The notes under the pieces: generated by a model | Seen by the model: only the letters and a program-made list of their open reading frames with translations | What the model was told of the DNA's origin: nothing | Databases searched by the model: none | Shown here: positions 5,014-59,125 of the stretch, one piece after another | Layout of the letters: each line of letters opens with the position of its first letter | Numbering within the stretch: position 1 is the first letter of the stretch | Made by a program: the position numbers and the translations under genes | Assembly: GCF_003473485.1 (NCBI RefSeq) | Contig: NC_053042.1 | Location: 39,832,762 to 39,896,761 of the forward strand | Direction: 5' to 3' | Length of the DNA: 64,000 nucleotides | Source of the DNA: Medicago truncatula | Lineage: Eukaryota > Streptophyta > Magnoliopsida > Fabales > Fabaceae

Positions 5014-6127
5014 TTAGGTTTGTTTGGATGCACAAAGAAAGTGAAAGGAAAGAATGAGAAAGAAAAAATTGTCTAAGGAAAGAAAGATCGTAGAAAGTAA
5101 GGGATTGTTTTGGTTGTTTGGTACAAGAGAATGTGGAATAGAAAGTTGGAGAAAAGAAAGACCAAAATTTAGTAATTGACATTAATACCTTTAAACAAAA
5201 ATAATGTTAGTATTTATAAACTAATTGTTTATAGTTTTTGTGGAAAAATAAATGCGGCATAAAACAACCACATGTACTGACAAAACGTTAGGCAGTAAAT
5301 TATTTCCAAAAAAAAAAAAGAAGCTAGCGTTGAATTGAAATAAAAAATGAAAAAAGACTTGACCAAAAACAAATAAAAAAGACAACAACTGAAATAATCA
5401 AAGAGTTAAATATGTTTTTGGTCCCTATAAATATACCAACTTTTTGTTTTAGTCCCTCTAAAATTTTCCTTCGACTTTTAGTCCCTAAAAAATTTTCCAT
5501 CTTCACTTTTGGTCCCTCTTTTAAAGTAAACTCATATGTAGAATTCATATTTTTGAATCAAATTTTTAATAAAAATTCATAATATTATAATAATCTCTCC
5601 CAAAAAATATTAGAATTTTTAAAAAAAACATAAATTTAATATGAATTTTTATATTATTTATGGTTAAAAATTCATATATAATTTATGTTTACTTAAAAAA
5701 TTCTAATTTTTTTTGGGAAATGTTTTTACAATATTCTACACATTTCTGTACAATTTCATTAAAAAATACTAAAATTTACTTTAAAATAGGGACCAAAAGT
5801 AGTGATTCAAAATTTTATAGGACTAAAAGTTGAAGGAAAATTTTAGAGAGACTAAATCGAAAAGTTGGTATATTTATAGGGACCAAAAATATATTTAACC
5901 CATAATAAAATGAGTAAAGAATAAAAATAGGGGCATTCTTGATATTTTGAACAAAACACCAGTATTCTTCAAGCATTCCGTTCAATTGTGGGTGGAAAAG
6001 TTTTCAACGTGGGTTCCACAAAAATTCTTTCTTTCCTTACCTTTTTAGGGAGTTCCAAACAACAGAAAGATTTTCTTTCCCTAACCTTTCTTTCCTCATC
6101 ACTTTCTTTCCCTTGAAACAAACATAC
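5014..6127. mobile_element. MITE with caaac/gtttg ends, interrupted by another MITE
   Basis: The left end (ttaggtttgtttggatgcac followed by a purine-rich gaaag stretch) is complementary to the right end (pyrimidine-rich ctttctttccc, then gaaacaaacatacc). The inside is split by the 499-base element at 5403-5901. The exact ends and target duplication are not resolved. Confidence 0.5.
5403..5901. mobile_element. Mutator-type MITE of the 'ggtccct' family
   Basis: Long complementary ends: aatatgtttttggtccctat at the left and the complement at the right, extending about 100 bases with mismatches. It is flanked by a 9-base direct repeat with one mismatch (ataatcaaa 5394-5402, ataataaaa 5902-5910), as made by Mutator-like transposases. 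It has no coding capacity. A degraded fragment of the same family lies at about 26380-26740. Confidence 0.7.
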
Positions 6128-8804: not shown

Positions 8805-9307
8805 ACTTTGAGAGAGAGAGATAAACGAAGTCACACGACACTCTTCTACGTACGTAATCTCAAGTCTAACAATTAATGCATTTCAACCGTTTGATCAGTC
8901 ATATGCTTGTTTTTTTTCTTCTTTTGATTTGATTTTTCTTTGGCTTGTATTTAATTTTTCTTTGTCTAGTTTCTCCATATTTTTCAAGAACATTATCCTT
9001 TATATAATTGTTGTTTGATTTGTCTTCTCGATCAATCTATATAAATTAAGATAAATATTTGGAGGATCATGCATACAATTGTAATTATATAAAAACTAGA
9101 AGAAAATGTGGTCGAATCACAACTTTATTTTGGAGAATTTCTATGGTGGCAACTTAACATGTACAATGCATTTAATCTTTAACTTAAGAAAAATGCTAAC
9201 GAGTGCCTTCGATATGGTTTTTTTTAAATTACTCTCTTTTGTTTAGAGAGTATTTACCCTCTCATGATATCAACCAATCAAAATGTAATATACATTGTGA
9301 GGCCTAT

Positions 9308-11431
9308 GTTACCCTCTCTTGTTTAGAGGGTAATTACCCTATCATGATATCAACCAATCGAAATGTAATATAGATAGGTAACATTAAATGTCAAATAAAT
9401 GAGTAGATTTTTTCTAAAAATAAAGAGTTAATCTTAATCATTTTTTTAAGGAGAGTTAATCTTAATCATAAAGTAACTTTTAATACTTTTAATTTTTATT
9501 TAATTTTTTATTGAAACAGTAAATGATTTTTTTTTTTTTATATTAAGGTGTTCAATCTTAATTAATTTACACCATAAGACTTATAACAAATAAAATTTTA
9601 CATCAAATTTCTGTCATCTGGATGTACTTAAATTCATCACTTACATTCATAAAATTTCTTCCATTCTAGAACCCCGAACGTGAGAACAAAAACATCTCCT
9701 TCATTCAAATTTCTTCTTCTTTATTCTTTCCTATTGATCAATTCTTGTTTCTTTTTCATTCTTCTTCCCATTTTGATTTGTTCAATTTTGTCGTTCCAAA
9801 CTGCCGTAGTTTCCAATTATAGTGAGAATTGTCATTGTTTCTAGAACTGCGTCAGGTATCGTGACTTACTTTTTCTTATTTAAGTAGTCAACCTAATAAA
9901 ATCTGAAAACACGCATAGATCTGCCTCACTATCAGCCAAAGCCTTTAAGTCCAAACAAAAGAACAAAAGCCTCATCACATAACTATTTCAGCAGCAACCA
10001 AAAAAATGCTAGCAGACTCCCACAACATCACAACGGCAACACCTGCTAGCAGCCCTCAAAGTACAACAGATGACTTACTCAATTGTTATAATTAACTACC
10101 TCACAACCAAGAAAAATCAAATAAAAAAGAAAAATCAAGTCACCATACCTGACGTGGTACTGGAAATAACGACAATTCTCACGATATTTGGAATCAAACG
10201 AACGACGATGATTCTCACGAAAATTGAAAAATGTGGCAGTTGGGGACGACAAAATTGAACAATCAAAATGGGAAGAAGAAATTTTATGAATATAACTGAT
10301 AAATTTAAGGACATTCAGAAGAAAGAAATTTGATGTGAAATTTTAATTGTTCTAAGCCAATCCTGTAGTGTAAATTAACTAAGATTGAATACCTAAATAT
10401 GATTAAGGCTATTACATTATGGGTCCTTTATCTTATTTATATGTAACACTTTGGTCCTTTATCTTTATTTTTTTTCTCGTTTAGGTCCTTTATCTTTCTT
10501 AGAAGCACATATACATCTTTTTTCTCATTTTTTATTAAAAATGAAAAAAAATCCTGAAATATGATGAAGATGTTCATCATCTTCATCTTCTTCCTTTGAA
10601 TCTTCATCATCTTCTTTAAATAAAAAAAAAATTCTACTAAAATATATCTCAAAATATCGTGAATTAATGTTATTTTCACCTCAAATCTTCTTTTAAACAC
10701 AAAAATCAAAACCTTAATTTCACAAATGTTGCAAGGCGGATGGTGGAGGCTTGGTCACTGACGGAAGGGTTAGGCTTTACGAAAGTTAAGATTGTTCTGG
10801 AAACAACAAAATGGATGTGCAAAGCTGCTCTTGGGGTTATTTTTATGTCGGGTTTGAATATTGAGTTATAAAATAATAATAATAATATACGGTGTGACAA
10901 TCCTTTTTTTTTTTTTTTTGCGAGGAAACTAAATCTCTTTCTCTACAGGATTATGATTTTTGTGTTTAAAAGAAGATTTGAGGTGAATATAACATTAATT
11001 CATGATATTTGTGTAGAAATTTTTTTGATTCAAAGGAAGAAGATGAAGATGATGAACATCTTCATCATATTTATGGATTTTTTTCATTTTTAATAAAAAT
11101 ATATTTTAAAAAATAAAATTATGTATTTCTTTTATAAAAAATATGAGAAAAAGAATGTATATGTGCTTTTATAAGAGATAAAAGACCTAAACGAAAAAAA
11201 TAAAGATAAATGACCAAAGTTTTAGAAATAAATAAGATAAATGACCTCTAATGTAATCATGTCTATAATTAAATAAAATTAAAAGTATTAAAAGTTACCT
11301 TATGATTATAATTGATTTTTTTTTTAGAAAAAATTGACTCATTTATGGCATTTAATGTTGTCAATGTATATTATATTTTGATTGGTTGATATCATGAGAG
11401 GGTAAATACCCTCTAAACAAGAGAGGGTAAT
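9308..11431. mobile_element. Large non-coding inverted-repeat element
   Basis: The left end reads taccctctcttgtttagagg, followed by atgatatcaaccaatc and more. The right end is the complement, ending aacaagagagggta. A partial second left end lies at about 9229-9290. The inner arms (about 9590-9680 and 10290-10360) also pair. The interior has no recognisable transposase, only a younger nested element at about 10404-11262. The family could not be decided, since no clean target duplication was seen. Confidence 0.6.
10404..11262. mobile_element. Nested MITE with attacatta / taatgtaat ends
   Basis: The left end, attacattatgggtccttta, is complementary to the right end, taaatgacctctaatgtaat. The arms pair over roughly 200 bases, including the caaaggaagaagatgaagat segment near 11030 and its complement near 10570. 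It is inserted in the larger element 9308-11431 and so is younger. No protein-coding capacity. Confidence 0.6.
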
Positions 11432-13572
11432 ATAGAAAAAATCACATTTATTGCATTAGAAATTGAAGTTTTTACTTTTTTTAAAAATAATTTCTTTATT
11501 AAAAATGTTTAAAGAGTGTATCGGGGACAGTCATTAACAAAAACCCTTTACTTAATAGCTACAATTTTTTCGAAATATTTTTTGTCATTTAAAAAATTAT
11601 AATAACTAAAAACAATGAAGGGATGCTTTTTTTTCTTATGAAATAATATTTCTCATTCATTCAAAAAAATGATAAATAATTTATTGATTTAGTAAACAAA
11701 TATACCAAAATACTTAAATTTGTTAATTTATTGAAGACATATGGATTTAATTCATATACATAAAAAGTGTAAAAAAAAAAAAAAAACTATGTTGTGAAAG
11801 CTTTATACCGACAATGCATCTAAATTATTCTTTTAAAAAAGAATATAAAATATTGTGAAACCCTCTCAAAAACAAATAAAATATTGCGAAATGAGGACAC
11901 TAATTTGTCTAGCCTTTTCATGTTTCTTTGATAAAAATATAATATTTCAAAAAAAAAATGTTTAGAGAAAAAAATCATGCGTAGATATTTTTTCTACATT
12001 ACCCTTGATGAATTTCCAATTATCTACCCATATCAAAGAAAAATGTCACTTTTATTCTTACAATTAATTACCATTTTTATCTCAAAAACATCAAACTTTT
12101 CCATTTCTTTTATTTAATATGTGATCTCCATCTATTTCGTTCAAAAATCGAACTCAAGTTGTCATGAGGTAAATTACTCTCAATTCATCAAGGAGTAATG
12201 TAGACCCTCGTTGATAAATACATTAATAGTTTTCATTAAAAATTAATATATTTCATAAAAGAAAGAGACAATAAAGTCTATATATAGCAACTAATCACAA
12301 AACCAATTTTTTCACGTTTCCATGAATTCACAAAAGGTCGACAAAGTCAATTTGCGTATAATTTCTTGATGGATCTTGCTAAATAGGTGATAGGAGCAGC
12401 TAAATAAGTCCATTCACATATTAACAGCGAATATAATTTCTCTCAATAACCAATCACTCAATCAATTCCAAGATTTGGTTTATTTTGGTTGATTTCGTTA
12501 TTTATTGCCTTTCTTTTAGGCAAGTTGATTTGTTATTATATCCCTCCGTCAATTTTATGGATGTATCATTATCATTTTGTCAAGAAGTAAAACAATACAA
12601 GCAGCCAGCTCTAGCTCTCAGCAGCCGGAGTTTGCATTTTCATCTTCTTCATTTTGTGACTTGTGAAGATGTTTACTTCTAGAAAGTAAAACAATACTTA
12701 AAGTTGTAGCATATTCCTTTTTGTTTTTGTCTTTAGATGAATTGTGGCAAATATGCACAAGATTCATATACATTACACATATGTGAGATTTCAAATTTAA
12801 ATATGGATGAAAATGTTCAATCTAACGATCAACATTAATTAAACTAAGTCTTACAAACAAAGTATTCTATATATATCCTTTATTTTTAACTAAACTTTTA
12901 GAAAATAACTTTCATTTTTTTTACTTCAAAAAGTAATATGTACTTATTTATTTTTAGTGCAGAAAATAACTTTAAGAAAATAGCTAGACACTATAAAACA
13001 AATATTTGTCAACTTGATATTTTTTTCAATTACTTAATTATCGATATTTTTAAAGTAGTATTTATTTAATTTTTTTCACAAAAGTAAGAATTAACATTTC
13101 CTACTAAAAATGGAAACTTTGGCTCTGCTAGGATTTCGAGAGAGTCGAGCGTGAGTGTACAGTGAACCACCGTACACTGCAAAGACAAGTTGTCAGCACG
13201 GTTAATTGGCTAGATCGCACTCGCAGACATGCTTAAAAGGGTTATTAATAAGTTGCGGAGTTCATCATTTTCCTCAAAAGTCAATGTCTTTTGTTGGATA
13301 ATATTGGAGTTGTAATAAAGAGGATGTAGTGAATTGAGAAGCAAATCTCATACCAATAAATTTAGATATATGGAACAAAAAGGAAGTAGTAATAATCAAT
13401 AATTAAAGTAGTAATTTAGATATATGTTAGTTTTTTTAAAAAAAAAAATGGTCATAAAAGTAGAAGTTGAAAAAAAAAAACACAATGAGTCCTTATTCCA
13501 TTACTTCAAATGCACATACAAACTACTAGTGACACTTTCATTGCTCCATTTTTTCATAATTCTCCTACTTGA
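11432..13572. other. Intergenic DNA without recognised gene
   Basis: Very AT-rich with many homopolymer runs. A slightly GC-richer block at about 13110-13240 has a short inverted pair (gtgtacagtg / accaccgtacact), but I recognise no gene or element. Nothing else is supportable. Confidence 0.4.
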
Positions 13573-13769
13573 TCTAATTCACCACCACTATTACCTCAAG
13601 GTCCTCCTCAAGTTGTTGTTATGAGTTCTTGTGCTGCTTGCAAGATTTTGAGGAGAAGATGTACTGTTGATAAGTGTGTTTTGGCATCTTATTTTCCTCC
13701 TATACTGATCCTGCCAAGTTTACCATTGCTCATAGAGTTTTTGGTGCTAGCAACATTGAAAATGAATAA
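13573..13769 (+). pseudogene. LOB-domain (LBD) gene fragment, frameshifted
   Basis: Reading from the codons for SPPLLPQGPPQVVV through MSSCAACKILRRRC to YFPP gives the start of a plant LOB/LBD transcription-factor domain. After YFPP a two-base shift (extra 'at') moves the match to the next frame, which continues TDPAKFTIAHRVFGASNIE and then stops. The zinc-binding block reads C-x2-C-x6-C-x4-C instead of the strict C-x2-C-x6-C-x3-C. The rest of the domain (leucine-zipper-like part) and the variable C-terminus are absent, and a stop lies just upstream. It most resembles the LBD1/LBD11 group (from memory). A dead fragment, probably a partial duplication carried here. Confidence 0.85.
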
Positions 13770-14795
13770 CATTGAAAAACTGAACCTCATTATCTCAATA
13801 AATAATATGTAATAAGTGAATCAACCTAGGACTTTTAGCCTCACATTGAAGGTTCACACATAATGTTTGAAAGGATAAGTGCGTAATGTGAAGATAATTT
13901 TCGGCTGCCTGCAACATCCTTATTTATAATCTTAAGGTATTACATAATAAGGATCCGTGTTTGAACAAGTAAATCCCAGCCCATGAAAAAAGCAAGTGGC
14001 ACAAAACCGTAGTCAACTGCTTTAGATATCATATTTGTGACCTTCAAGACATCTGAATTAGGTTTTGGGTTCAACATGCAAGTTGTTGCTCTACTTATTA
14101 TATTTCCAACGAATGCTCGTACACTTCAATCCAATAATCACAACCCAAGTTATGGTCTACAGAGTGACCATAGATCAATATGCAAATAATTTCAAAAATT
14201 AGTCAAAGAAATACATCAGAGATTAATTATGACTCACCATTTAGAAACATGCTAACAAGCTGATATTAGGCTCAAACTGATCTCAAAATTTCAAAGTACA
14301 AAGCCAGAAAATATGTGCTTAAACGTGCAAATTAATATATTTTCAAAAATCCAAAATTAAGCCGAAAAAAAGCTTATGATAGACAACAATAAATAGTTAG
14401 ACCTTAAATATTTTGACAGGACAAACTTAAGTTTTGCAAAAGTCTAACTTAGTGCAACATATTTCCTCTAATAATGATGGTGTATGTGTTCCTCTTATTT
14501 GATCGCAAAACACTTGTGATAATTTTTATTTTTACAAGAGCGATAGTTGGCTTTTAATAAAGTTTAATTATAAAAAGATTTAAATGTACTTTTAGCCCCC
14601 TCAATGTTTATAAACTAGCGATTTTGACCACTAATTTTAAAAATAGCACATTTGCCCCACTCCCATTTCAGTCCATTTTACAAAAATCAACACATACATA
14701 ACCATCCACTTAACTAAATCAAACAACATGTAATTTTTTTATTTTAAAATAAAAAACTAAGCAAACGTCACAATCTTACAAAAACGACCTCAAGT
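13770..14795. other. Intergenic DNA between LBD fragment and MULE
   Basis: No gene is visible. About 14570-14760 resembles one side of a 'tttagccccctcaatg' type repeat (low-copy MITE remnant), with no partner arm in view. Confidence 0.4.
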
Positions 14796-14804
14796 CCTAG
14801 AAAT

Positions 14805-15963
14805 GAATTTTTTTTTTCTGCCCTAGTTTATACAAAAAAATACAAAAATGTCCCACTGTTTCGAAAAATTGCGCAAATGCCCTACTTTTTCAGAAGTTCC
14901 TGGTACCACTCCCCTTGGAGTTGCAGGGTACCCTAAAAAATCACAAATTTTTTGTCCTTATTGTACCCCGCTACTTGGAGTTGCGGGGTACTTTCCTATT
15001 TTTTTTTCTTCAATTTTTTAACTACCCCGCAAGTTGGACTTGCGTTTTAGCTTTTGGTTTTTTTTTTTAAATTTTTTAAATACCCCTCTACTTGGAGTAG
15101 AGTGGTATAATGAAGACAAAAAAAAAAAATGAACGTGTAATAATTACTCTCTAATAATAAAAAAATTAATTAAAATTATATAACCAATAAAATACCATCT
15201 ACAATGCCGCATGTTCTAGCTTTTGTCACGACTACAAGACTTTTGTCGATAACAAATTCACGAATGAGTGTGTATACGCCGTATACAACATCCACTTCGA
15301 CGTGGTTCACCACCAGACATATTGGCCTAATTATGAAGGACTGAAGGTGGTTCCCAACAAGTCCATGCGTAGGGCAAAGAAAGGTCGTCCACCAATTACT
15401 TGCATTAGGACCGAGATGGACGATGTGGAAACTGAGAGAAGATGCGGCGTTTGTAGGATGCTTGGTCATTCCCGCAAAGATTGCATTAATATTAGACACC
15501 AGTAGAAATCTAGTCTTTATTTCGTTTGTAGGATGTCTGGTCATTTCCACAAATAATTGTAGATTTTATGGTATTTTATTGGTTATATAATTTTAATTAG
15601 TTTTTTATTATTAAAGAGTAATTATTACACATTCATTTTTTTTTTTGTCTTCATTATACCACTCTACTCCAAGTAGAGGGGTATTTAAAAATTTTTTAAA
15701 AAAAAACAAAACCTAAAACGCAAGTCCAACTTGCGGGGTAGTTAAAAAATTGAAAAAAAAAATAGGAAAGTACCCCGCAACTCCAAGTAGCGGGGTACAA
15801 TAAGGACAAAAAATTTCTGACTTTTTAGGGTACCCCGTAACTCCAAGTGGAGTGGTACCATGGACTTCTGAAAAAGTAGGGTATTTGCGCAATTTTTTGA
15901 AAAAGTGGAACATTTTTGTATTTTTTTTGTATAAATTAGAGCAGAAAAAAAAAAAAAAAAACT
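14805..15963. mobile_element. Mutator-like element (MULE) deletion derivative
   Basis: Two arms of about 360 bases (14805-15175 and 15595-15963) are inverted copies of each other at roughly 90 per cent, judged by eye. They include the repeated tacccc/ggggta blocks around acttggagt. The element is flanked by an exact 9-base direct repeat, cctagaaat (14796-14804 and 15964-15972). Long terminal inverted repeats and a 9-base duplication are the hallmarks of MULEs. The interior retains only the last part of a transposase gene (15302-15505), so the copy is non-autonomous. Confidence 0.9.
15302..15505 (+). pseudogene. C-terminal remnant of a MULE transposase
   Basis: The 67-codon open stretch contains YWPNYEGLKVVPN, then a basic MRRAKKGRPP, then IRTEMDDVE and a CCHC zinc knuckle CGVCRMLGHSRKDC (C-x2-C-x4-H-x4-C), ending at a stop. 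This order matches the end of plant mudrA-type transposases after the SWIM finger. The DDE catalytic core and the SWIM finger are missing. A second partial knuckle-like copy follows at 15527-15562 (CRMSGHFHK-like), suggesting a small internal duplication. Confidence 0.8.
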
Positions 15964-16365
15964 CCTAGAAATAGATTGTTTAAGTTGAAAAGATAGATAA
16001 TATGAAGATTAACAATCAAAATCTCCACATTATTTTCTCAATTTTTTTTTTTTTTCCAACCAAGAGAATCTACTACCCCAAATCCCTTTTCCTTATGCGC
16101 GCTTTTTATATAATCCTCCCTCAAAAAAAAAAAAAATATAATCCTCCCCAAGCAAACGTTTCAATCTCGCAACCAATTCTGTTTCGGTTAGTATTCAATT
16201 TCACTTCTATTAATAATTTTCTTGCTTCGTTCATCATGCTACATCGATTTTTGCTTGTGTCACTATCTAGTTTTCAATTTTTTGTTATGGAAATTTCATA
16301 CAGAATTGTGCTTTTATCAAATGTATGTATCTGTTATGTGATACTTGGTTCCACTTTTTGAGGGG

Positions 16366-16594
16366 GCAAAATTGATTCTAGAGCTCTAGAATTAATTCAC
16401 ATGTTTGGTTGCTTTCGAGTAAAATTAATTTTGCTTGATTCTACTTGAAGTTTGAATTTGTAGCTTTTGGTTGTAAATGAGTTTTATACACAAATTTAAA
16501 ATTCAACTCACTTTTACATGAATGTATAGAAACATAAATCATTTTACCTTCAACTCACTTTTAGCCGTAATCTATTTTACAGAATCAATTTACT
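16366..16594. mobile_element. Legume MITE at the 5' end of the TXNL4B-like gene
   Basis: The ends read aaaattgattcta and agaatcaattt, with an interior containing cacatgtttggttgctt. A related, degraded copy lies at about 31530-31845 in the Aux/IAA intron. Its right end stops about 20 bases before the ATG at 16615, so it must lie in the leader or in a leader intron. Confidence 0.55.
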
Positions 16595-16614
16595 CAAAAC
16601 TGTGGTGAAGAAGA

Positions 16615-19600
16615 ATGAGTTACATGTTAACAACGTTGTCTCAAAAGAGAGAGGTTGATTCTATCATCAGAGACACTATAGATAAGGTTCTTGTCCTGCG
16701 CTTTGGTCGTGAATCTGATCCTAACTGTCTCCACCTCGATCAAATTGTATGTTTTCCTTTTGTCTCCTTTTTTAATTTATCTTGTTTTATTTTTTGAATT
16801 TTATATGATTCACAATTCTAACCCTTTACTTTTCATTTGTGTTGTTGATACAGCTTTCTAAAGCAGCAAGAGAGGTGTCCAAATTCGCAACTGTGGCACT
16901 TGTTGATGTTGACTCTCCTGACATTCAAGTTTATGTCAAATATTTTGACATCACTTTGATTCCATCTACACTGTTTTTCTTCAATGCCCATCACATGAAA
17001 ATGGATTCTGGGTATGATATTGTTACTTCCTTTGTGTTTTTGCTTTTGTTTATTGCTTCCTGTTCTGATTTTATGTTCAATTATTTTTAGTTGGTTCTTT
17101 AGTTCCGTTATGTTTGTGTAATTGGTAGATATTGTGTTAGATGATTTGCTTATAGTTATGATTCCTATTGAAAAGTATTGCAGGAAACAAAAAATGTACT
17201 TCCATATTTTGAAACTTGATGAGATTTGTAGTCTGTCTCTTATTTATTTTATTTAAAATTTCCCTTTGGATGTTGATGTTATTCTGTTATATACATGAAT
17301 TAGTACCAGAATAGATGGTTAGTTTCATTAACTATTTGTTCTACAATGCTTATATGTTCTTTTAGTTGAGAATTGAGATCATTTCGTGAAAAGTTGAGGA
17401 TTTGAAGTTGGCTTATAGAAGGTCTGAAAACTGGAATTGATCCTTCCTCTTCAATTTTACAGCATTGATCATTATGTATCTGTAAACTTCGATTCATGTG
17501 TGTTTAGAGGCGTGAGTGGGCATGTGGGGAAGGAGGGGAGAAGAGAGTTTGTTGGTTAAGAATGACCTTCCTTTAGTAAATTGTCCTAAAGTCCAAACAA
17601 AGTTGTACGAATCAAATGTCATTCAAATAAGTTAGGGAGGATATATCTATGTTGAGAAGAGTTTGCTCATATTGTGAACTCTCTCGACTAAGCTATCCAT
17701 TTATGTTTTCTCTTTTTGTTTTAAAGTTAGGAGTTAGGACCTAGTTTCCTCTTATTGTGTATGTGTGTTGTACTATTGCATTCTTTTTAGCTTTTTATCG
17801 GTTGTACCTCCTAAACATGTATTTATGGGTGCTTAATTCACCTAATGTTTTAAAATATAGAACCTTTAGACCTTTACTTTTGGTCACTTTTGTCGAGTTA
17901 AAATTTGCAGGTAATATTTTAAATTTGTTATCTTTTGAGTGATATAAAAAATTGAGGCATGGAGGACATCATGATAAAAACTACTATGTGAAATGTTAAA
18001 AAATCCCAACATTGGATGAGACAAGGCCTGAAAATGTATTTAAAAGTTGGGGGAGTCCTCACCTTACAACCCAGTTTTGTAATGGTTTAGTTAGGCTCAA
18101 CCCACATTCTAAGGAGAAACACCACTTAAGCGGGCCTATTATTTTAAGCTAAATGAGTTTGCTCTAAAAGTAAATAGCTACCTTTACACCGGTAAATACA
18201 ATCTGAACTAATCAATCACTCAAATGTTGGGTAAGTTTGGTTTTTGAAGTGAAGCTTATTCAAATCAAGTATTAAGTCTAATAAATGTTGCAATGTAATG
18301 TACGCCTGAGTCTATGAAACTTTTCATTATCTCTATAGTGCAATTAAACCATGTTTACTCAAAAGCTTTAGATGGTGTAAATGCAAACTATTAACTTTTT
18401 GTATTTGGTAATCCCCTGTTCTGCAAATGTTGGCTTAGATCTCTATGTTTATCTTATGTTCTGACTTATATCAATGAATTTAGGGAGTCTGCTTTTTTAT
18501 TTTTTTCTTTTACTTTATTTTATGTAGGACTGCAGATCATACTAAATGGATTGGTGCTTTTCACAAAAAGCAAGACTTCATTGATGTGGTTGAGGTACGT
18601 ATCCCTGTTTGCTGGATCCATAATGTTATTCGTGTGGATCTTTCATCTTAGTGGCATGATTATCAATTGCTTAAACTACTGATAGCTTTTAATATTAAAT
18701 TTATAGGTAAAATAGTAATAGATGATGATTATATGAAGATTTACAAGATTATGTAGTCCAAGCGTGAAAGTATGTGCAATAGTCTTATAGATAATATTGT
18801 TAAAAAAAGAGAGTCTTATAGATAATAAATTAGCGATAAATCATATCCTAGTCATTCCAAAACAAACCGAATACTTTCAATTACGAAAAATATTCTAAAA
18901 CAAAATGATAAATCATATCCTAGTCATTCCACATTGAGAAAATCAGCCTCTATGCCTAGCTCAGATGAGGACAAGTCAACTCAGCAACTTCAAGAAATCC
19001 ACTATCATCCAAACTCATCTCTAGCGACATCCCATATTTTACTTTCCTCTTGATGATATTGGGGAGTGCTCCTTGATAGAAGTCGAAGGTTACTATGCAC
19101 ATATACTAAAGCTTCCGCTCTATGTGGTGTCATCTTGTTTCTCTTCAAAAATGGATAAATGAATATGTACTTCAATTTCTTTCACAACATGAAGATGGAC
19201 AAGGTTGTTCAAGTAGCTTAGGTGCATCCTTTTGAAGTAATAGACCTCGAGCACCATGAACCAATCACCATACTTTTGGATCCATATCATCTTTATCAAC
19301 TAGAGAATCAAATTGTCAAAACCTTCTCTTCCATCTGAGAAGTTTGCAAACTCTGTTCACTTTCCTTCTTTCATCTACAACAGGAAACAATCTTCTGAAA
19401 CATTTTTCTCTTTCCTCAGTGAGCTCAATGGATAAGTGAAGATACTAATAGAGTCCCTCCACATCAAGCCATTGAGCTTACTGAGGAAAGAGAAAAATGT
19501 TTTAAAAGGTTGTTTCCTGATGTAAATGAAAGGAAAAAAAGTGAACATAGAGTTTGCCAACTTCTCAAATGGAAGAGAAGGATTTGACAATCTTGATGAT

Positions 19601-22600
19601 AGAGATAAGATGGATCCATAAGCATGGTGGTTGGTTCATGGTGCTCGAGTTCCATTAGTTGAAAAGGTTGCACTTAAGCTACTTGCGCAACCTTGTTTAT
19701 CTTCATGTTGTGAAAGCAATTGGAGCACATATTCATTTATTCATTCTTTGAAGAGAAACAAGATGACACCACATAGAGCGGAAACTTTAGTATATGTGCA
19801 TAGTAACCTTCGACTTCTATCACGGAACACTCCTCAATATCATCAAGAAATGTGGGATGCCGTTGGAGATGAGTTTGATTGATAGTGGATTTCTTGTAGT
19901 CGTTGACTTGTCTTCAGATGAGCCAGGCTGATTTTCTGAATGTGGAGTGACTAGGATATGATTTGATCATTTTGTTGTAGAATATTTTTTCGTAAATGAA
20001 AGTACTTAGTTTGTTTTGCTTGATTTATGTCTTCTTTTGGTTGATTGAAAGTACTGAGTTTAAATAAACATAAATTTTGCTTCTCATTTTACTCTTTATA
20101 AACTGTGCTCATAAATTGCTTTATTTTATTAATATATGTAGCAGTGCCCGTGACCTATGTTTTTTAATTAGCGATGTCCCCGTTTCTGAGTCCGTGCTTC
20201 ACAGGCATGCGCATACTGCTGAAATATAGATAATCTAGAATAGAACATATAAGATCTTACTATAGCAAAAATTGGTGAAAGAAATTTGATGTATTTGGTC
20301 AAAAATTTGGCATACATCAACTTTCTTTTACAAATTTTTGTTTATATTTGAGACTGGAGGCAGTAGATCGTAATATGACGGAATCTTAAGAATAGTTCAA
20401 AAGAAAAACAAGACATACCCCCCTACAACTTAAAAGAGTAGAGAGTTCCTTTTATTATTTTTTTGGAGTAGAGTAGAGAGTTCTTTAGCAGCACAAGCAA
20501 CTCTTTATAATGAGCAAGACTCTCTTCAACACTACAATTAATGTTTGATTCAGAAGTTGATCTAGAAATAGCTACTTCTTTAGCACCAACTGCTATACAA
20601 GCTTCAAAACCATATAAACGTAACCTTCCGCAACTATCGATAAATTCTCATAAAGCTAATGCAATTACACAACATGATAAGGATTCTTTCTGGGGGGTAG
20701 GGGTGAAGGTTACACCAAAACAAGAATGATTTTGTCAAACAAACCCTTGAAGGTTGAATGTTTTCAGGATTGACTCATGTGCCTTCTGGTCCTTTTCGCA
20801 ACCAGACAATATCAAAAGAAAAACTTCTGGTTAATATATGAATCACATAACATAACAGAAAAATAACGCAATTCAACTATCTAAGCAGAAAGATATTAGA
20901 AATATCAGAGTTACTTACAGCAAAGGAATGTGCCAAATATTTGGAACATCACAGAGAGTGAGTATGTTTGATAACTGCAGATACATAGTTTGCTTTAAGA
21001 ACATTATGTAATGCTTATCATAAGCAAAGTGAAACAGTGTTGAGTTATTTTGTGTCAGTTGCTGGGGTTGGTAACTGTTGGTTGGCGGCTTGGATTGTGC
21101 GGCATGACCTGAGGAGGGTCGTACCAGAGGGGTTTGCAGTTTCGCGTGACTGCGTGAGAGAGAACTGCGGAGAGGGTCTTGTGACGCACCAATGGGAGAA
21201 GAGAAGGGCAGTCATGCACTGGTGGCACTTTGGAAGGCTTCCACCATCAGAGAATTTGAGTGAGTTTAGAAGTTTAGAGAGAAGAGTGTAATGTGAATCT
21301 TAGGAATTTAGAGTGGTTTGGGTCTCTTGCATCTGAGGTGCAAAACAAAAACTCCAGGGTGCTCCCGATTCTTCTACCTCTAAGTATTGGACTTTCATTC
21401 ATCTAGTCAACCCTCTTTACCGCTGTTTTTATGGAGTTTCTCCACATATGTCCAAATTACCTTCGAAGAGATTCCATAATCTATTCTATGGTGAGAGCCA
21501 CTTCATAGTTCATAAATAAAATCATCATGTGTTTGTAAAGTATTTTACTGAGAAAGAGGGTCTTTTTCTGATGGCTAGTTGTAATTTGTAATTCCTGAGA
21601 GGACACAAAAAGCACTTCCCATTTGAATGGTGGGGAAAATGAAGAATGCTGGCTTATTGGCTTGATTTAGCGCAGCCACATGTCCCCTTTTCGAGTTTCT
21701 GTTCTATTCTTAAATCTTTTATATGGGAGTGCTTAACAAGGATGGACCCGAGTCGCCCTTGTGCTTCATTTCTAATGATTAATTTTTTTTGGTACATGAT
21801 AGATATTTTAGCAAGTGTACTAAATACTATCGAAGTAGTAAAAATATCGTTCCCACGAGGACTGTGTTAATCTCAATTTAGCAATAAGGTTAATATTTAG
21901 GATGTGTAAATTATTTTAATGCCTGAGGCAGTAGTTTTGGTTTGCATAAAATTAAATAACAAAATATAAAGATAGTTTGGAAAGAATAAGAGAGAGATGA
22001 GATCAGGTCTTTCGAATCATCTATGTTCCCCTAATTGGTATACTGCACCTATTCTTATAAATGATTTTCTAGTTCCACGATAGTTAACAAAATAGTCCTA
22101 ATCAATCCTTTGAGTTAGGACCCTCTTCTCAAACTACAGCCCCTAATTCCTTAGGTGGTCTAATAATCTTTGAAGGTTTTAAAAACGTTAACCTAATATC
22201 ACTAACAAACGATTATCCATTCCTAGACTAACCCTGTTTATTAGAACAATTCAATTCTGTCTAAGTAGAAAGCTATGGTCAGTAGTCATTCATTCTCACT
22301 AAATCATGTTTATATTTGATCAGGATATAAAAAGCATTAAGAACAATTGAATTGAATAAAAACTAGATTGTCATTCACAATAAATAGAGTTTCACAGCAA
22401 CATGGTTCAATTAGGGTTACAAAGAATCATCTCAGACCTAATCTCTAAGAGATTTAGCTACTCATAATTGAGTTTACAAATAGCATAATCAATAGTGGAA
22501 TCAAAACATACACGAACCGATAGAAGGTTGAAGAAATCGCCCTCCTAGCTGTCTTTAGGTCTCAAAATTGCACTTTGCTCTCTCCAAATCGTAACCCTTG

Positions 22601-23409
22601 TCTTTGGAATAGACTTCAGCTTAAATAGGCACAGAATTTCGCCTAAAATCGTGCCACGATTTAAGTAAATCGTGACACGATTCTCTTTGAATCGCAAATC
22701 ACTGAATTAGGGTTTCCTCAGATCGTGCCACGATTATGCCATCGTGACACGATTTCTTCAATGTCGAAGCTTGATTTTGATCTTCTAAAATCGTGTCACG
22801 TTTTTACCAAATCGTGACACGATTCTCTTCTTTATATTTTCTTCAGTTTTCTACTCTTTTGCTGCATAAGTTGCCTTGTGAACTCCAATTTGTGATCAAA
22901 ATACATATAAAAAGACTCTAGAATTAGCGAATGACGGACTGTACACCATTTCTAACAATTATGAATAATAAAGAGTAGTTCTTTGTGTTTTCGACCCAAA
23001 AAATCCACTAGAATAGGATAGGAGAAAGTGGTTTGTTCTCTCAACAAATAGACAAAGGGAGTGTTACTCTGTCATTTTACTTGAATATATCAAATTTAAG
23101 TTTGTCCACTCCTGGTGTTGATTCCCAAATCCATACTTGATGAATTTTGAGTGCATTTTTCTTTGGCATCACCAAGTTAGTATTCTAGTAGATTTCTTTT
23201 GTTTCTGTTATATTATTTTAAGATTTAATTTAAGAAGTTAGATATCTGGAAATGTTTTCTTCCAAGTATTTGTTAAGAATATTGATGAATCTGTTTTTAC
23301 ATTTCGATAGACAATATTTAGAGGAGCAATGAATGGAAAGCTCATAGTGAATTGTCCTCTCCCGCCTGAAAGGATACCAAAATACCAATTACTGTACAAG
23401 GATGTCTAG
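16615..23409 (+). CDS. TXNL4B: Dim1/TXNL4B-type thioredoxin-like splicing protein
   Basis: A 151-aa member of the Dim1 (U5-15kD) thioredoxin-fold family, which works in the nucleus with U5 / tri-snRNP splicing particles. Exons 16615-16746, 16854-17011, 18528-18594 and 23311-23409 join in phase at GT/AG sites. The protein runs MSYMLTTLSQKREVDSII, LVLRFGRESDPNCLHLDQI, then VALVDVDSPDIQVYVKYFDI, PSTLFFFNAHHMKMDSG, HTKWIGAFHKKQDFIDVVE and TIFRGAMNGKLIVNCPLPPE. The length matches TXNL4B (about 149 aa) better than the canonical Dim1/YLS8 (142 aa). It keeps FG and the single Cys37 but has no CxxC redox site, as in the family. Intron 3 is 4716 bases because of transposon debris, including an inverted hAT duplication. 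Loss of the correct intron 3 splice would truncate the last 32 residues. Confidence 0.92.
18855..20020. repeat. Long inverted duplication of hAT transposase sequence in intron 3
   Basis: Left arm about 18855-19432, right arm about 19469-20020, spacer about 36 bases. Matching pairs run from the outer ends (ttacgaaaaatattctaaaa with its complement) to the inner ends (tcctcagtgagctcaatgg with its complement). The right arm on the plus strand and the left arm on the minus strand both derive from the same hAT transposase 3' end. A transcript through the intron could fold into a hairpin of more than 500 base pairs with some mismatches. Confidence 0.85.
19631..19882 (+). pseudogene. hAT transposase C-terminal dimerisation domain remnant
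   Basis: The open stretch contains VALKLLAQPCLSSCCESNWS, then STYSFIHSLKRNKMTPHRAE and LVYVHSNLRLLSR. This is the conserved C-terminal dimerisation region (Dimer_Tnp_hAT) of plant hAT transposases. The catalytic part upstream is absent, apart from degenerate sequence. The opposite arm of the inverted duplication carries a worn copy on the minus strand. Confidence 0.85.
20021..21786. other. Unassigned middle of intron 3
   Basis: It contains two unexplained open stretches: 20541-20729 (62 codons, MFDSEVDLEIATSLAPTA) and 21037-21291 (84 codons, GC-rich, starting MLSYFVSVAGVGNCWLAAW). I recognise neither. Both probably belong to decayed mobile DNA, since they lie in an intron on the sense strand and have no conserved motif that I can name. 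Confidence 0.4.
21787..22945. mobile_element. Probable retroelement-derived repeat in intron 3
   Basis: Begins near ttggtacatgatagatattt, followed by the cgttcccacgaggactg motif that recurs in many plant repeats. The body is without coding sequence, and a palindrome-rich tail lies at 22647-22824. No complete LTR pair, primer site or target duplication is seen, so the class is uncertain. Confidence 0.4.
22647..22824. repeat. Cluster of aatcgtgNcacgatt palindromes
   Basis: Six copies of a 13-15-base near-perfect palindrome lie within 180 bases, for example aatcgtgccacgatt at 22647-22661, aatcgtgacacgatt at 22668-22682 and again at 22810-22824. The central base is C, A or T. The spacers differ, so this is not a simple tandem repeat. 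Confidence 0.8.
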
Positions 23410-24327
23410 AAATTTATTTAACTCAAACCACCCTCCCCTTTTTTCCTCTTTCCCTTGTAAAAACTCAAATTATAGTTTTTTTTTTTTTTTTTTTTCTGTT
23501 TTTCTTTCTCACCTTTTTCTTAGCAGATGCTGACTTGTAATAGTAAGACATGTATATGGGATTTTTTACATGTTGGTTCGACCATTAATGAAACAAAAAG
23601 CAGATATATCCGTCATTTGATTTGAACTCAAGTTGATTAGTATTAGTATTTCATTCATTTATCTCTGCTTTCCTTGTTTTTCAACAAAAAAAAAAGAGTA
23701 AGTCTTACTTGACCACAACCCAAATCAAAGATTAATTCGGCACGCACTGATGACAATTTTTAAAAGAGTAAACAACTAGACGGTGAATATTAAGAAGCTA
23801 CAAATGTAGCATTAAAGTGGACACATTTTTTTGTAAGATTGACGTGAAAACAAACACATACTAAGACAATTTGACAACTTGTAAACGTGATATTTTTCCC
23901 AATTGAAGTAGACAAACATTGCTTATCAATAGATTTCGATCAAACACAGATTTAATTGCCCCAGTATACTATTTGAGCTCAAAATATATTTTTAACTTGT
24001 TAAGTGCTAAATTAAAAATTATATCAAAAACATCATTTTTGAAATTTTTATTTTAGGATGTTATTGAGATATATAAGGATTAACTTATTAAGTCATATCT
24101 GTTAAAAATCATTAATCTATATATGTCTTAGTGACAAATCAAGTAGTGTTAGATTTATGGAAGTCTTATAGAGTGATTTACGTGATATTACTCAAGTGAT
24201 ACATGGGTGTAACTTGATATCTTCAAAATATATTCATTAATTAACAAGCAATCTGGATGATCTTTTTAAACTGTCATCTCAAATGGCAATCTAACCCATT
24301 TTTGATTCAAAAATAAATAATAAATAT
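23410..24327. other. 3' flank of the TXNL4B-like gene
   Basis: Probable 3' untranslated region for the first 100-250 bases, followed by AT-rich sequence with a poly-T run at about 23477. No other gene is seen. Confidence 0.45.
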
Positions 24328-24895
24328 AAATGCTCTTTTGGTCCCTTAAGTATTTAATTGATATTGCTTTGATCCCTTAACTAAAAAAAAGATTGTTTGA
24401 GTACTTTAAGTTTTTTTTTTTAGTCTCGTTTTGGTCCCTTCTGTTAGTTTCCGTTAGGGTTTAAAAAAAAAATTAACTCCTGGACACGTGTCACCTTGTC
24501 ATTGGCTCTGAGTTTTTTTTTTTACAAAAAAATATATATTTTTTTAAAAAATATATATATATATATTTAAAAAAAAAACTCAAAGCCAATGACAATGTGA
24601 CACGTGTCCCAGAGTTAACACGTGTCACCTTGTTATTGGTTCTGGAAATTTTTTACAAAAAAATAAAATACATATATTAAAAAAAATTATTAAAAAAAAA
24701 TTGTAAAAAAAAAAAAAACTCAGAGCCAATGACAAGGTGACACGTGTCCAGGAGTTAACTTTTTTTTAAACTCTAACGGAAACCTAACAGAAAGGACCAA
24801 AACGAGATTAAAAAATAAACTTAAAATACTCAAACAATCTTTTTTATAACCAAAGCGATACCAATTAAATACTTTAAGGGACCAAAAGAGCATTT
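24328..24895. mobile_element. Mutator-type MITE of a 'ggtccctt' family with ACGTG motifs
   Basis: Ends aaatgctcttttggtccctt and complement, with long pairing arms, flanked by aataaatat (24319-24327) and aataattat (24896-24904), a 9-base direct repeat with one mismatch. The arms contain four CACGTG cores (near 24485, 24602, 24620 and 24741), each within cacgtgtc(a/c). A fragment of a related family is at about 42270-42400. Non-coding. Confidence 0.7.
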
Positions 24896-34116: not shown

Positions 34117-35673
34117 GGGTTAATAGGCATTTACCTAGGGATGGCAATTGGACCCAGACCCAATGGGTACCCGCAAAAAATATTCACAATGGGTAGGGTA
34201 AAATCCCGCTTTTATGGGTCTGGGCACGGGTACGGGTAATACCCACAAAATTAAATGGGTATGGGCACGGGTAATGGTACTATACTGCCCAGACCCGCAA
34301 CCCCGCATATACATATTTATATAATATCATAAATTATTTTTTTATTTTTTATGTATAATTAATTAATTAATTTAACTATTTAAGCCTAAACCTAAACTTA
34401 AATCAAACAACTGCTTAATACAATAACAACTCCATCATGCCGGTGTATAATTTTTTAGGGATATTTTGGATGTTTTCTACTTGACTAAATACCACGATTC
34501 ATACTATTTTATGAGTTAATTTTAAAAAATTGAGATCGTAGTTTTATATCATTTGTGATGTGTTTTTTTGTTTTTTTATATTTAAAGTGCGGGTAATGGG
34601 TGCGGGTATGGGCACTTAGGTACCCATAGGGTATGGGGAAGGGGACTAAAGTTGTTGCCCTTGAGGTACGGACACGGGTACGGGTATTTTTTATAAATGT
34701 GGGTATGGGGACGGGCACTGTAGTACCCTACCCATTGGGTACCCATTGCCATCCCTACATTTACCCCCTATAATATATGTCACTTTTGGTTTTGCCCTCT
34801 GTTAAAAAAAAAAATTAAAATTGGATTTGGTTCTTGTAAATTTTTTTGGTTTTGGAAAACCCCCCTAGGTCAGCTGACTGTGCATTTTTGTAGATGTGGC
34901 ATGCTGTGTCACTTTTTTCGGATGACGTGTCGCACAGACTGTATAATTATTTTTATTTTTTAATGGGATACACGTGGAATTTATGATTTTTTTTAAAAAA
35001 ATTCTTAAAATATTATAAAAAATGAAATAAATTCTGGAAAAATAAAAATGATTAAAAAAGGGAAATAATTATGGAAAAATTAATAAAAATCTGTAAATTT
35101 GAAAAAATTTAGTAAAAAAAAATCTGGAAAAAATGAAAAAATTAATATATTTCAAAAAATTCATATTACCATATTATTTTCAATAGCGAAAAAATTAAAA
35201 AAATCTGAAAAGATGAAAAAAATTCATTTTTTTTTTCGAAAGTAAGAAGTTTTATTTTATAAAAAAATGAAAAATTCAGGAACTTAAAATATTTCAAAAT
35301 TTATGAATATAATAAGAATAGAATTAAAAATTAAAGTTTAGATTTTTCTTTCAAAATTAAAAAGTTTGTTTTTTTAATCATTTTTATTAATTTTTCCGTT
35401 ATATTTTCATTTTTCCAAAATTTATTTTATTTTTTAAAAAAAAATCATAAATGCCACGTGTACCGCATTAAAAAATAAAAAAATTATAGAATCAGCGCGC
35501 CACGTCGTCCGAAAAAAGTGACGCTGCCAAATCAGCAAAAATGCACAGTCAGCTGGTCTAGGGGGTTTGCCAAAACAAAAAAAAATTACAAGGACCGAAT
35601 CCAATTTTTTTTTATATTTACAGGGGCAAAATCAAAAGTGACTTATATTACAGGGGGAAAAGACCTATTAACC
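34117..35673. mobile_element. Inverted-repeat element hosting a younger hAT MITE
   Basis: Left end gggttaataggc, then (after removing the nested MITE) atttaccccctataatatatg. The right end is the complement, ending tattacagggggaaaagacc then tattaaccc. The arms (34766-34960 and 35480-35673) pair well, including the ctaggtcagctgactgtgca block. The middle is A/T-rich with aaatgaaaaa repeats. Non-coding; probably a Mutator-type MITE by style, but I could not fix the target duplication. Confidence 0.6.
34136..34757. mobile_element. hAT-type MITE with exact 8-base target duplication
   Basis: Ends tagggatggcaattgg and ccattgccatccctA, flanked by catttacc on both sides (34128-34135 and 34758-34765). 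The 8-base duplication and short ends assign it to the hAT superfamily. Subterminal regions are packed with gggta/taccc motifs, as is the relative at 4205-4876. It sits inside the left end of the element 34117-35673 and is therefore younger. Confidence 0.9.
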
Positions 35674-59051: not shown

Positions 59052-59124
59052 GCGCCCATGGCCTAATGGATAAGGCGCTTGACTTCTAATCAAGCGATTG
59101 TGGGTTCGAGTCCCACTGGGCGTG
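59052..59124 (+). tRNA. tRNA-Arg (anticodon TCT)
   Basis: A complete cloverleaf of 73 bases without intron. The acceptor stem GCGCCCA pairs with TGGGCGT (the first pair is G-U) and the discriminator is G. The D arm is in ggcctaatggataaggc. The anticodon stem cttga/tcaag encloses the loop cttctaa with anticodon TCT. The T arm is gtggg-ttcgagt-cccac. A box and B box are consensus. It closely matches known plant cytosolic tRNA-Arg(TCT). A run of six T follows directly, so it is very probably a functional nuclear gene, not a SINE. Confidence 0.95.
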
Positions 59125-59125
59125 C

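Follow-up and report, generated by a model that had tools for sequence, protein, structure and literature searches.

Is a long hairpin of transposon origin in the intron of a host gene a device that keeps related transposons silent, or the remains of an element in decay? The question is raised by a stretch of 64,000 nucleotides of Medicago truncatula (NC_053042.1, positions 39,832,762 to 39,896,761 of the forward strand), referred to here as the window, in which intron 3 of a DIM1-family gene contains two inverted copies of the 3′ end of a hAT transposon. A sequence-only reading of the window had proposed that transcription of the host gene would supply the hairpin constitutively and that the resulting small RNAs could silence an active hAT family, in what might be an arrangement not described before. 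The analysis points, with fairly good confidence, to an ordinary intronic inverted repeat derived from a transposable element (TE), that is, to a decaying hAT relic and not to a maintained silencing device. This reading is carried by the anatomy of the repeat, by its presence in both copies of a duplicated gene, and by a rate of change in its arms since that duplication which is like that of the rest of the intron.

Anatomy and hAT origin of the hairpin

The inverted repeat is present in the sequence at 18858-20018, with two arms of 574 and 550 nt and a spacer of 37 nt, very close to the arms of more than 500 bases and the spacer of about 36 that had been claimed. Of the 581 columns in the global alignment of the arms, 491 are matches, 52 are mismatches, and 38 contain gaps. 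The arm identity, whose computation had been called for, is 90.4% at ungapped columns (491/543) and 84.5% with gaps counted. A first arm alignment, together with the tree built on it, was discarded, as it included 88 bp of non-homologous left-arm flank and gave an apparent identity of 83%. Transitions account for 33 of the 52 mismatches; G-U pairing is retained at 18 mismatched columns, which gives 509/543 standard or G-U pairs versus 491 identical columns; this G-U share is about that expected from neutral transitions (half of the 33, by our own estimate). The arms exceed the arm length typical of hairpins formed by miniature inverted-repeat transposable elements (MITEs).

The RNA of 18858-20018 has a predicted minimum free energy (MFE) of -768.4 kcal/mol, with 506 predicted arm-arm pairs. 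The mean of 60 dinucleotide shuffles is -272.2 kcal/mol (standard deviation 8.8, lowest -294.4), and the lowest MFE among same-length segments taken across the 64 kb is -423.9 (n=42, in 1500-base steps, none coinciding exactly with the hairpin). The features of the hairpin and its host gene are as follows.

16615..16746, plus strand: exon 1 of the DIM1-family gene, coding part (PF02966 match, exon model)
16854..17011, plus strand: exon 2 of the DIM1-family gene (PF02966 match, exon model)
18528..18594, plus strand: exon 3 of the DIM1-family gene (profile match, exon model)
18595..23310, plus strand: intron 3 holding the hairpin, 4716 bp, GT..AG (splice sites read from the sequence alone)
18835..18859, no strand: direct repeat (25 bp) of 18907-18931, marking the outer margin of the left arm; shared by the C7 paralogue
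18858..19431, minus strand: left hairpin arm (574 nt), copy of the hAT 3′ end, antisense to the host gene (self-alignment)
19432..19468, no strand: loop of 37 nt, similar to sequence 5′ of the right arm in relatives (alignment)
19469..20018, plus strand: right hairpin arm (550 nt), copy of the hAT 3′ end, sense to the host gene (self-alignment)
19622..19882, plus strand: 86-aa stop-to-stop open reading frame in the right arm, Dimer_Tnp_hAT (PF05699), E 1.9e-10 (profile match)
20019..20204, plus strand: hAT 3′ subterminal region and tip ending TGCTTCACAG, unpaired (comparison with relatives; tip read in the window and in the C7 copy)
23311..23409, plus strand: exon 4 of the DIM1-family gene, coding part through the stop (exon model)

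The arms derive from a plant hAT transposon of the type that combines DUF659 with a hAT-dimerisation region. The C-terminal dimerisation region is recognized in the right arm by the PF05699 match, and the relative L011 retains an upstream part of the transposase with DUF659 (PF04937, E 4.8e-41). Beyond its paired part the right arm runs outward, as the relatives show, through the subterminal region to a family-like hAT 3′ tip at 20204, and hAT tips are common to many loci. The identification of the arms as inverted hAT ends is borne out by this domain and this tip, and the hAT-derived block, at about 18835-20204, is larger than had been stated. Both arms correspond to the hAT 3′ end. Terminal inverted repeats at both ends of the block were not found, the right tip being present and the left tip absent, and on this structure the hairpin is classed as a relic of hAT origin instead of an element. 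The region 20019-20204 is unpaired because the left arm is without a matching region. The left arm ends at 18858, where 25 bp from further inside it occur a second time; a small rearrangement thus removed the left tip and left this repeat as its scar.

The location in a third intron of about 4.7 kb is also upheld. The DIM1 family (PF02966) is matched by three open reading frames (16609-16797, 16809-17090, and 18484-18651), the third slightly under the Pfam cut-off (25.2 vs 27 bits), and exon 4 was located with short DIM1 motifs. The host protein is presumably similar to the DIM1-like/TXNL4B branch of the thioredoxin-like proteins of the U5 small nuclear ribonucleoprotein.

The duplicated gene block and change since duplication

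The genome was searched over 430 Mb in 42 contigs, by searches that score only the best candidates. On contig C7, at about 34750k, the same gene block is found in pieces which are 95.7 to 98.2% identical across window positions 13267-24168, and it includes the exons, intron 3, and the hairpin with the same 25-bp scar and the same lost left end. As the C7 paralogue has the same hairpin, the hairpin is older than the duplication of the block. The C7 match (98%) was also considered as a second transposition of the hairpin and rejected, since the shared flanks show the gene block itself to have been segmentally duplicated. The C7 arms are a little less alike, with 482 matches and 54 mismatches. 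Exon 2 DNA matches two places in the genome only, the window gene and the C7 paralogue; this search found no third close copy, hence there is no empty site to compare, and a strongly diverged third gene copy may have escaped it.

Between the two copies the arms differ by 16 substitutions in 1116 sites (1.43%; 6/574 in the left arm and 10/542 in the right), and the other intron DNA by 32 in 2933 (1.09%; pieces of 18/1508, 1/263, and 13/1162). Six of the 16 arm changes broke a pair, two created one, four kept it, three concern sites that are still unpaired, and one falls in a gap column; compensatory changes between the arms number 0 among these 16. The divergence between the arms (52/543) is about seven to nine times that between the paralogues. 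The comparison points, if weakly, to arms that evolve like unconstrained intron DNA, with no sign of maintenance or of selection on pairing. The locus is of value as a duplicated, relatively datable intronic TE hairpin without sign of constraint.

Two blocks of the window, 14805-15989 and 21797-22941, are missing from C7. The former is a 1.19-kb foldback 5′ of the DIM1-family gene, with inverted pieces 91-95% complementary, a predicted fold of -647.5 kcal/mol, and a repeated TCCTAGAAAT on its flanks; it is probably a younger insertion. The latter is a 1.1-kb block of intron 3 with GTAC near each junction. On C7 (34738101-34767800, comprising L026, L009, and L025) the 5′ flank of the gene block (window 13190-14813 and 15990-16288) recurs, in inverted orientation, after the block, and this may reflect the way in which the duplication took place.

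Tail-out pairs in the hAT family

Relatives of the hAT end were compared at 23 independent loci, each of the segmental pairs window/L009, L010/L011, and L018/L019 being taken as one locus. Long copies, defined by a single alignment piece of >400 bp, occur at eight of these loci (window/L009, L010/L011, L012, L013, L014, L015, L016, and L017), and at five of the eight (window/L009, L010/L011, L012, L016, and L017) they form tail-out inverted pairs, with the 3′ ends outward. This recurrence of tail-out inverted pairs of one hAT end is the unexpected result of the analysis and the one most deserving renewed attention. The 15 other loci (L018/L019, L020-L024, L027-L034, and L035) have shorter family matches and include no long inverted arm pair, L035 being without self-comparison. 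Weak fragments in opposite orientation at L031 (outward tip fragments about 4.4 kb apart) and L035 (about 0.7 kb apart) were not counted, and short weak matches at C1:25544088, C5:36927448, C5:30329166, C7:40346179, and C7:12086464 were left out.

Besides the window hairpin, the arm identities at ungapped columns are 89.0% in L010, 88.5% in L011, 84.1% in L012, 84.7% in L016, and 92.5% in L017. Tight turns are seen in L012, L016, L017, and the window hairpin, and the turning points in hAT coordinates vary between the tail-out pairs; from these differing turning points, repeated formation of the pairs is favoured. The arm tree is largely star-like, and its well-supported groupings are limited to the segmental pairs and the two L017 arms (100/98), the grouping of the window arms being unsupported (23/48). 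Such a tree would fit a founder followed by a burst, the repeated formation of pairs, and insertions next to each other alike, and does not tell them apart.

The pairs might also descend from a mobile foldback element with transposable 3′ tips at both ends that inserted as a unit, an origin that is conceivable but rather improbable. The share of tail-out pairs among the long-copy loci speaks for it, as do the two tips kept in L016 and L017 and, with altered bases, in L012, and a star-like tree is expected after a burst. However, the unit insertion with target-site duplication that marks a foldback element or MITE is not seen at L012 or L016, where no 8-bp duplication was found (best 5/8 bases each), and L017 has no clear duplication by eye (6/10 flanking bases agree). 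Nor do the five independent pairs share one structure, as they turn at unlike points.

A further origin, judged unlikely, is that two members of one hAT family inserted independently and in opposite directions, without any inverted duplication. It agrees with the unsupported grouping of the window arms and with their mutual likeness of about 90%, which is similar to their likeness with the L010/L011 arms (86-90%). Conversely, a 37-nt turn at which the arms join at almost one and the same point of the hAT sequence is unlikely by chance in 430 Mb, tight turns recur in three other pairs, and the arms of L017 cluster together. If hairpins do regularly arise from one hAT end, plants could repeatedly generate silencers of their own transposons by this route, and families rich in tail-out pairs would become testable with public small-RNA data.

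Single members of the family deserve mention on their own. L010/L011 is a second family hairpin, within an older segmental duplication which spans most of 9.9 kb and has flanks mostly 89-97% identical; being common to both duplicates, this hairpin predates its duplication. The longest family hairpin found, at L016:3090-6211, keeps both tips, its arms measuring about 1.5-1.6 kb and being separated by about 8 bases. At L031:4479-4998, a 520-bp sequence has both hAT family tips and the near-matching flanks TAAGAAC/TAGGAAC, and is possibly a short non-autonomous member of the family.

Possible activity of the intronic hairpin

Under the preferred reading of the hairpin as a decaying relic, the hAT 3′ end would have come to lie twice in intron 3 of the DIM1-family gene, inverted and with both 3′ ends outward, the left tip would then have been lost, and the later duplication of the gene block between two chromosomes would have placed the hairpin in both gene copies. 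The transcribed intron could fold into a near-continuous hairpin of 1.16 kb which would be removed along with the intron; at most, part of it would be diced to small RNAs, mainly affecting its own locus and broken relatives.

Several points weigh against so inert a picture. One 102-nt piece of the arms reaches 96% complementarity. At <=2 mismatches, 450/554 of the left-arm 21-mers and 408/530 of the right-arm 21-mers match L010-L024, versus 0/554 for both control stretches of intron, and the arms are thus near enough to their relatives for matching by small interfering RNAs (siRNAs), as had been supposed. With 506 predicted pairs, such a piece, and such matches, dicing and matching in trans are physically possible. 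In a review, about 486/634 of the Arabidopsis inverted repeats near genes are given as having 24-nt siRNAs (PMC12595863), a base rate that favours siRNA output. The neutrality test, moreover, rests on just 16 changes.

The relatives matched by the arm 21-mers appear broken. No intact transposase frame was found in L010-L024 (15 loci, hAT strand, limited stretches), where a frame split by introns would escape, and the longest hAT-strand open frame in the stretches examined has 315 aa (L011). DNA searches for an intact autonomous target that started from the hairpin, from the 3′ tail, or from an upstream part of the transposase gave fragments among the best candidates, which falls short of showing absence; the search with the upstream part had 13 matches, 12 in known loci and one, short and new, at C2:10088903. 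In these DNA searches the check for full-length hAT copies that had been called for gave fragments, and the proposed silencing of an active family finds no support, with no intact frame in the 15 loci and a hairpin that seems not to be maintained.

An effect in cis would be of the type in which 24-nt siRNAs methylate intron 3 and tune how the DIM1-family gene is spliced or expressed. Comparable effects of gene-proximal inverted repeats of TE origin are on record (PMC12595863), siRNA-producing introns have been named "sirtrons" (PMC5260113), and transcription of the gene, if it occurs, would include the hairpin. However, across about 476 exon bases compared, the two gene copies differ at 5 and have no indel, so that both seem to have been kept in spite of the hairpin, and the arms are without visible constraint; an effect of this kind is considered improbable.

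The idea behind the finding is already published, and the window locus is a further example of it. Inverted TE copies in introns transcribed by RNA polymerase II have been proposed to feed hairpin small-RNA pathways (PMC3086885), which together with the naming of sirtrons removes the claim that the arrangement is undescribed; the locus resembles both in having inverted TE copies inside such an intron (PMC3086885, PMC5260113), a likeness which in the case of sirtrons is one of computed fold. Hairpins from nested insertions have been discussed as silencing triggers (PMC11624286), and endogenous inverted-repeat transcripts are listed among Dicer substrates (PMC12825306). Long inverted repeats of rice, described as probable small-RNA precursors, likewise have two complementary arms and a short spacer, although in the Zhenshan 97 example the arms reach about 7.4 kb and small RNAs have been measured (PMC7649420). 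The Arabidopsis gene-proximal inverted repeats that affect chromatin are also TE-derived and located at genes, but are particularly MuDR-family MITEs (PMC12595863), unlike the duplication of a hAT coding end seen here. Among the matches listed in a literature search of partial coverage, no paper was found on the window locus or on hAT hairpins of the source genome.

In the maize Mu killer locus, a MuDR derivative with an inverted duplication of mudrA, both terminal repeats come from the same element end (PMC3440606). The likeness to it that had been claimed holds for the geometry: in both loci part of a transposase gene is duplicated in inverted orientation next to a host gene that is, here presumably, transcribed (PMC3440606), and both arms of the present hairpin come from the hAT 3′ end, of which one tip survives. 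The present hairpin differs in being hAT and not Mutator, in its arms of about 0.57 kb at 90%, in its lost left tip, in its intronic position, and in having no intact target in the loci examined. In PMC3440606, contrary to an older model, silencing by Mu killer is linked to short antisense transcripts and not to sense read-through from the flanking gene, which tells against constitutive supply by host transcription.

That tail-out hairpins are a regular by-product of aberrant transposition or repair in this family, and that the intronic, duplicated one helped to extinguish it, would explain the sighting of broken copies only, but is very doubtful. A Mu-killer-like silencer in trans, for which host transcription would constitutively supply the hairpin and its siRNAs would keep related hAT copies silent, agrees with the geometry, the predicted fold, the 21-mer matches, and the presence of the hairpin in two introns, but is highly improbable given the lack of an intact target among the loci and DNA matches examined, the undiminished change of the arms since duplication, and the sense read-through unlinked to silencing at Mu killer (PMC3440606).

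Elsewhere in the window, an Rfam search at gathering thresholds had a tRNA as its sole match, and 59052-59125 is a tRNA-Arg (anticodon TCT). Further inverted pairs lie at 14834-15927, 9212-11447, 5405-5899, 24405-24826, and 34807-35619; the one at 9212-11447 consists of nested long inverted repeats, with outer arms at about 9212-9496 and 11275-11447 and two inner foldbacks.

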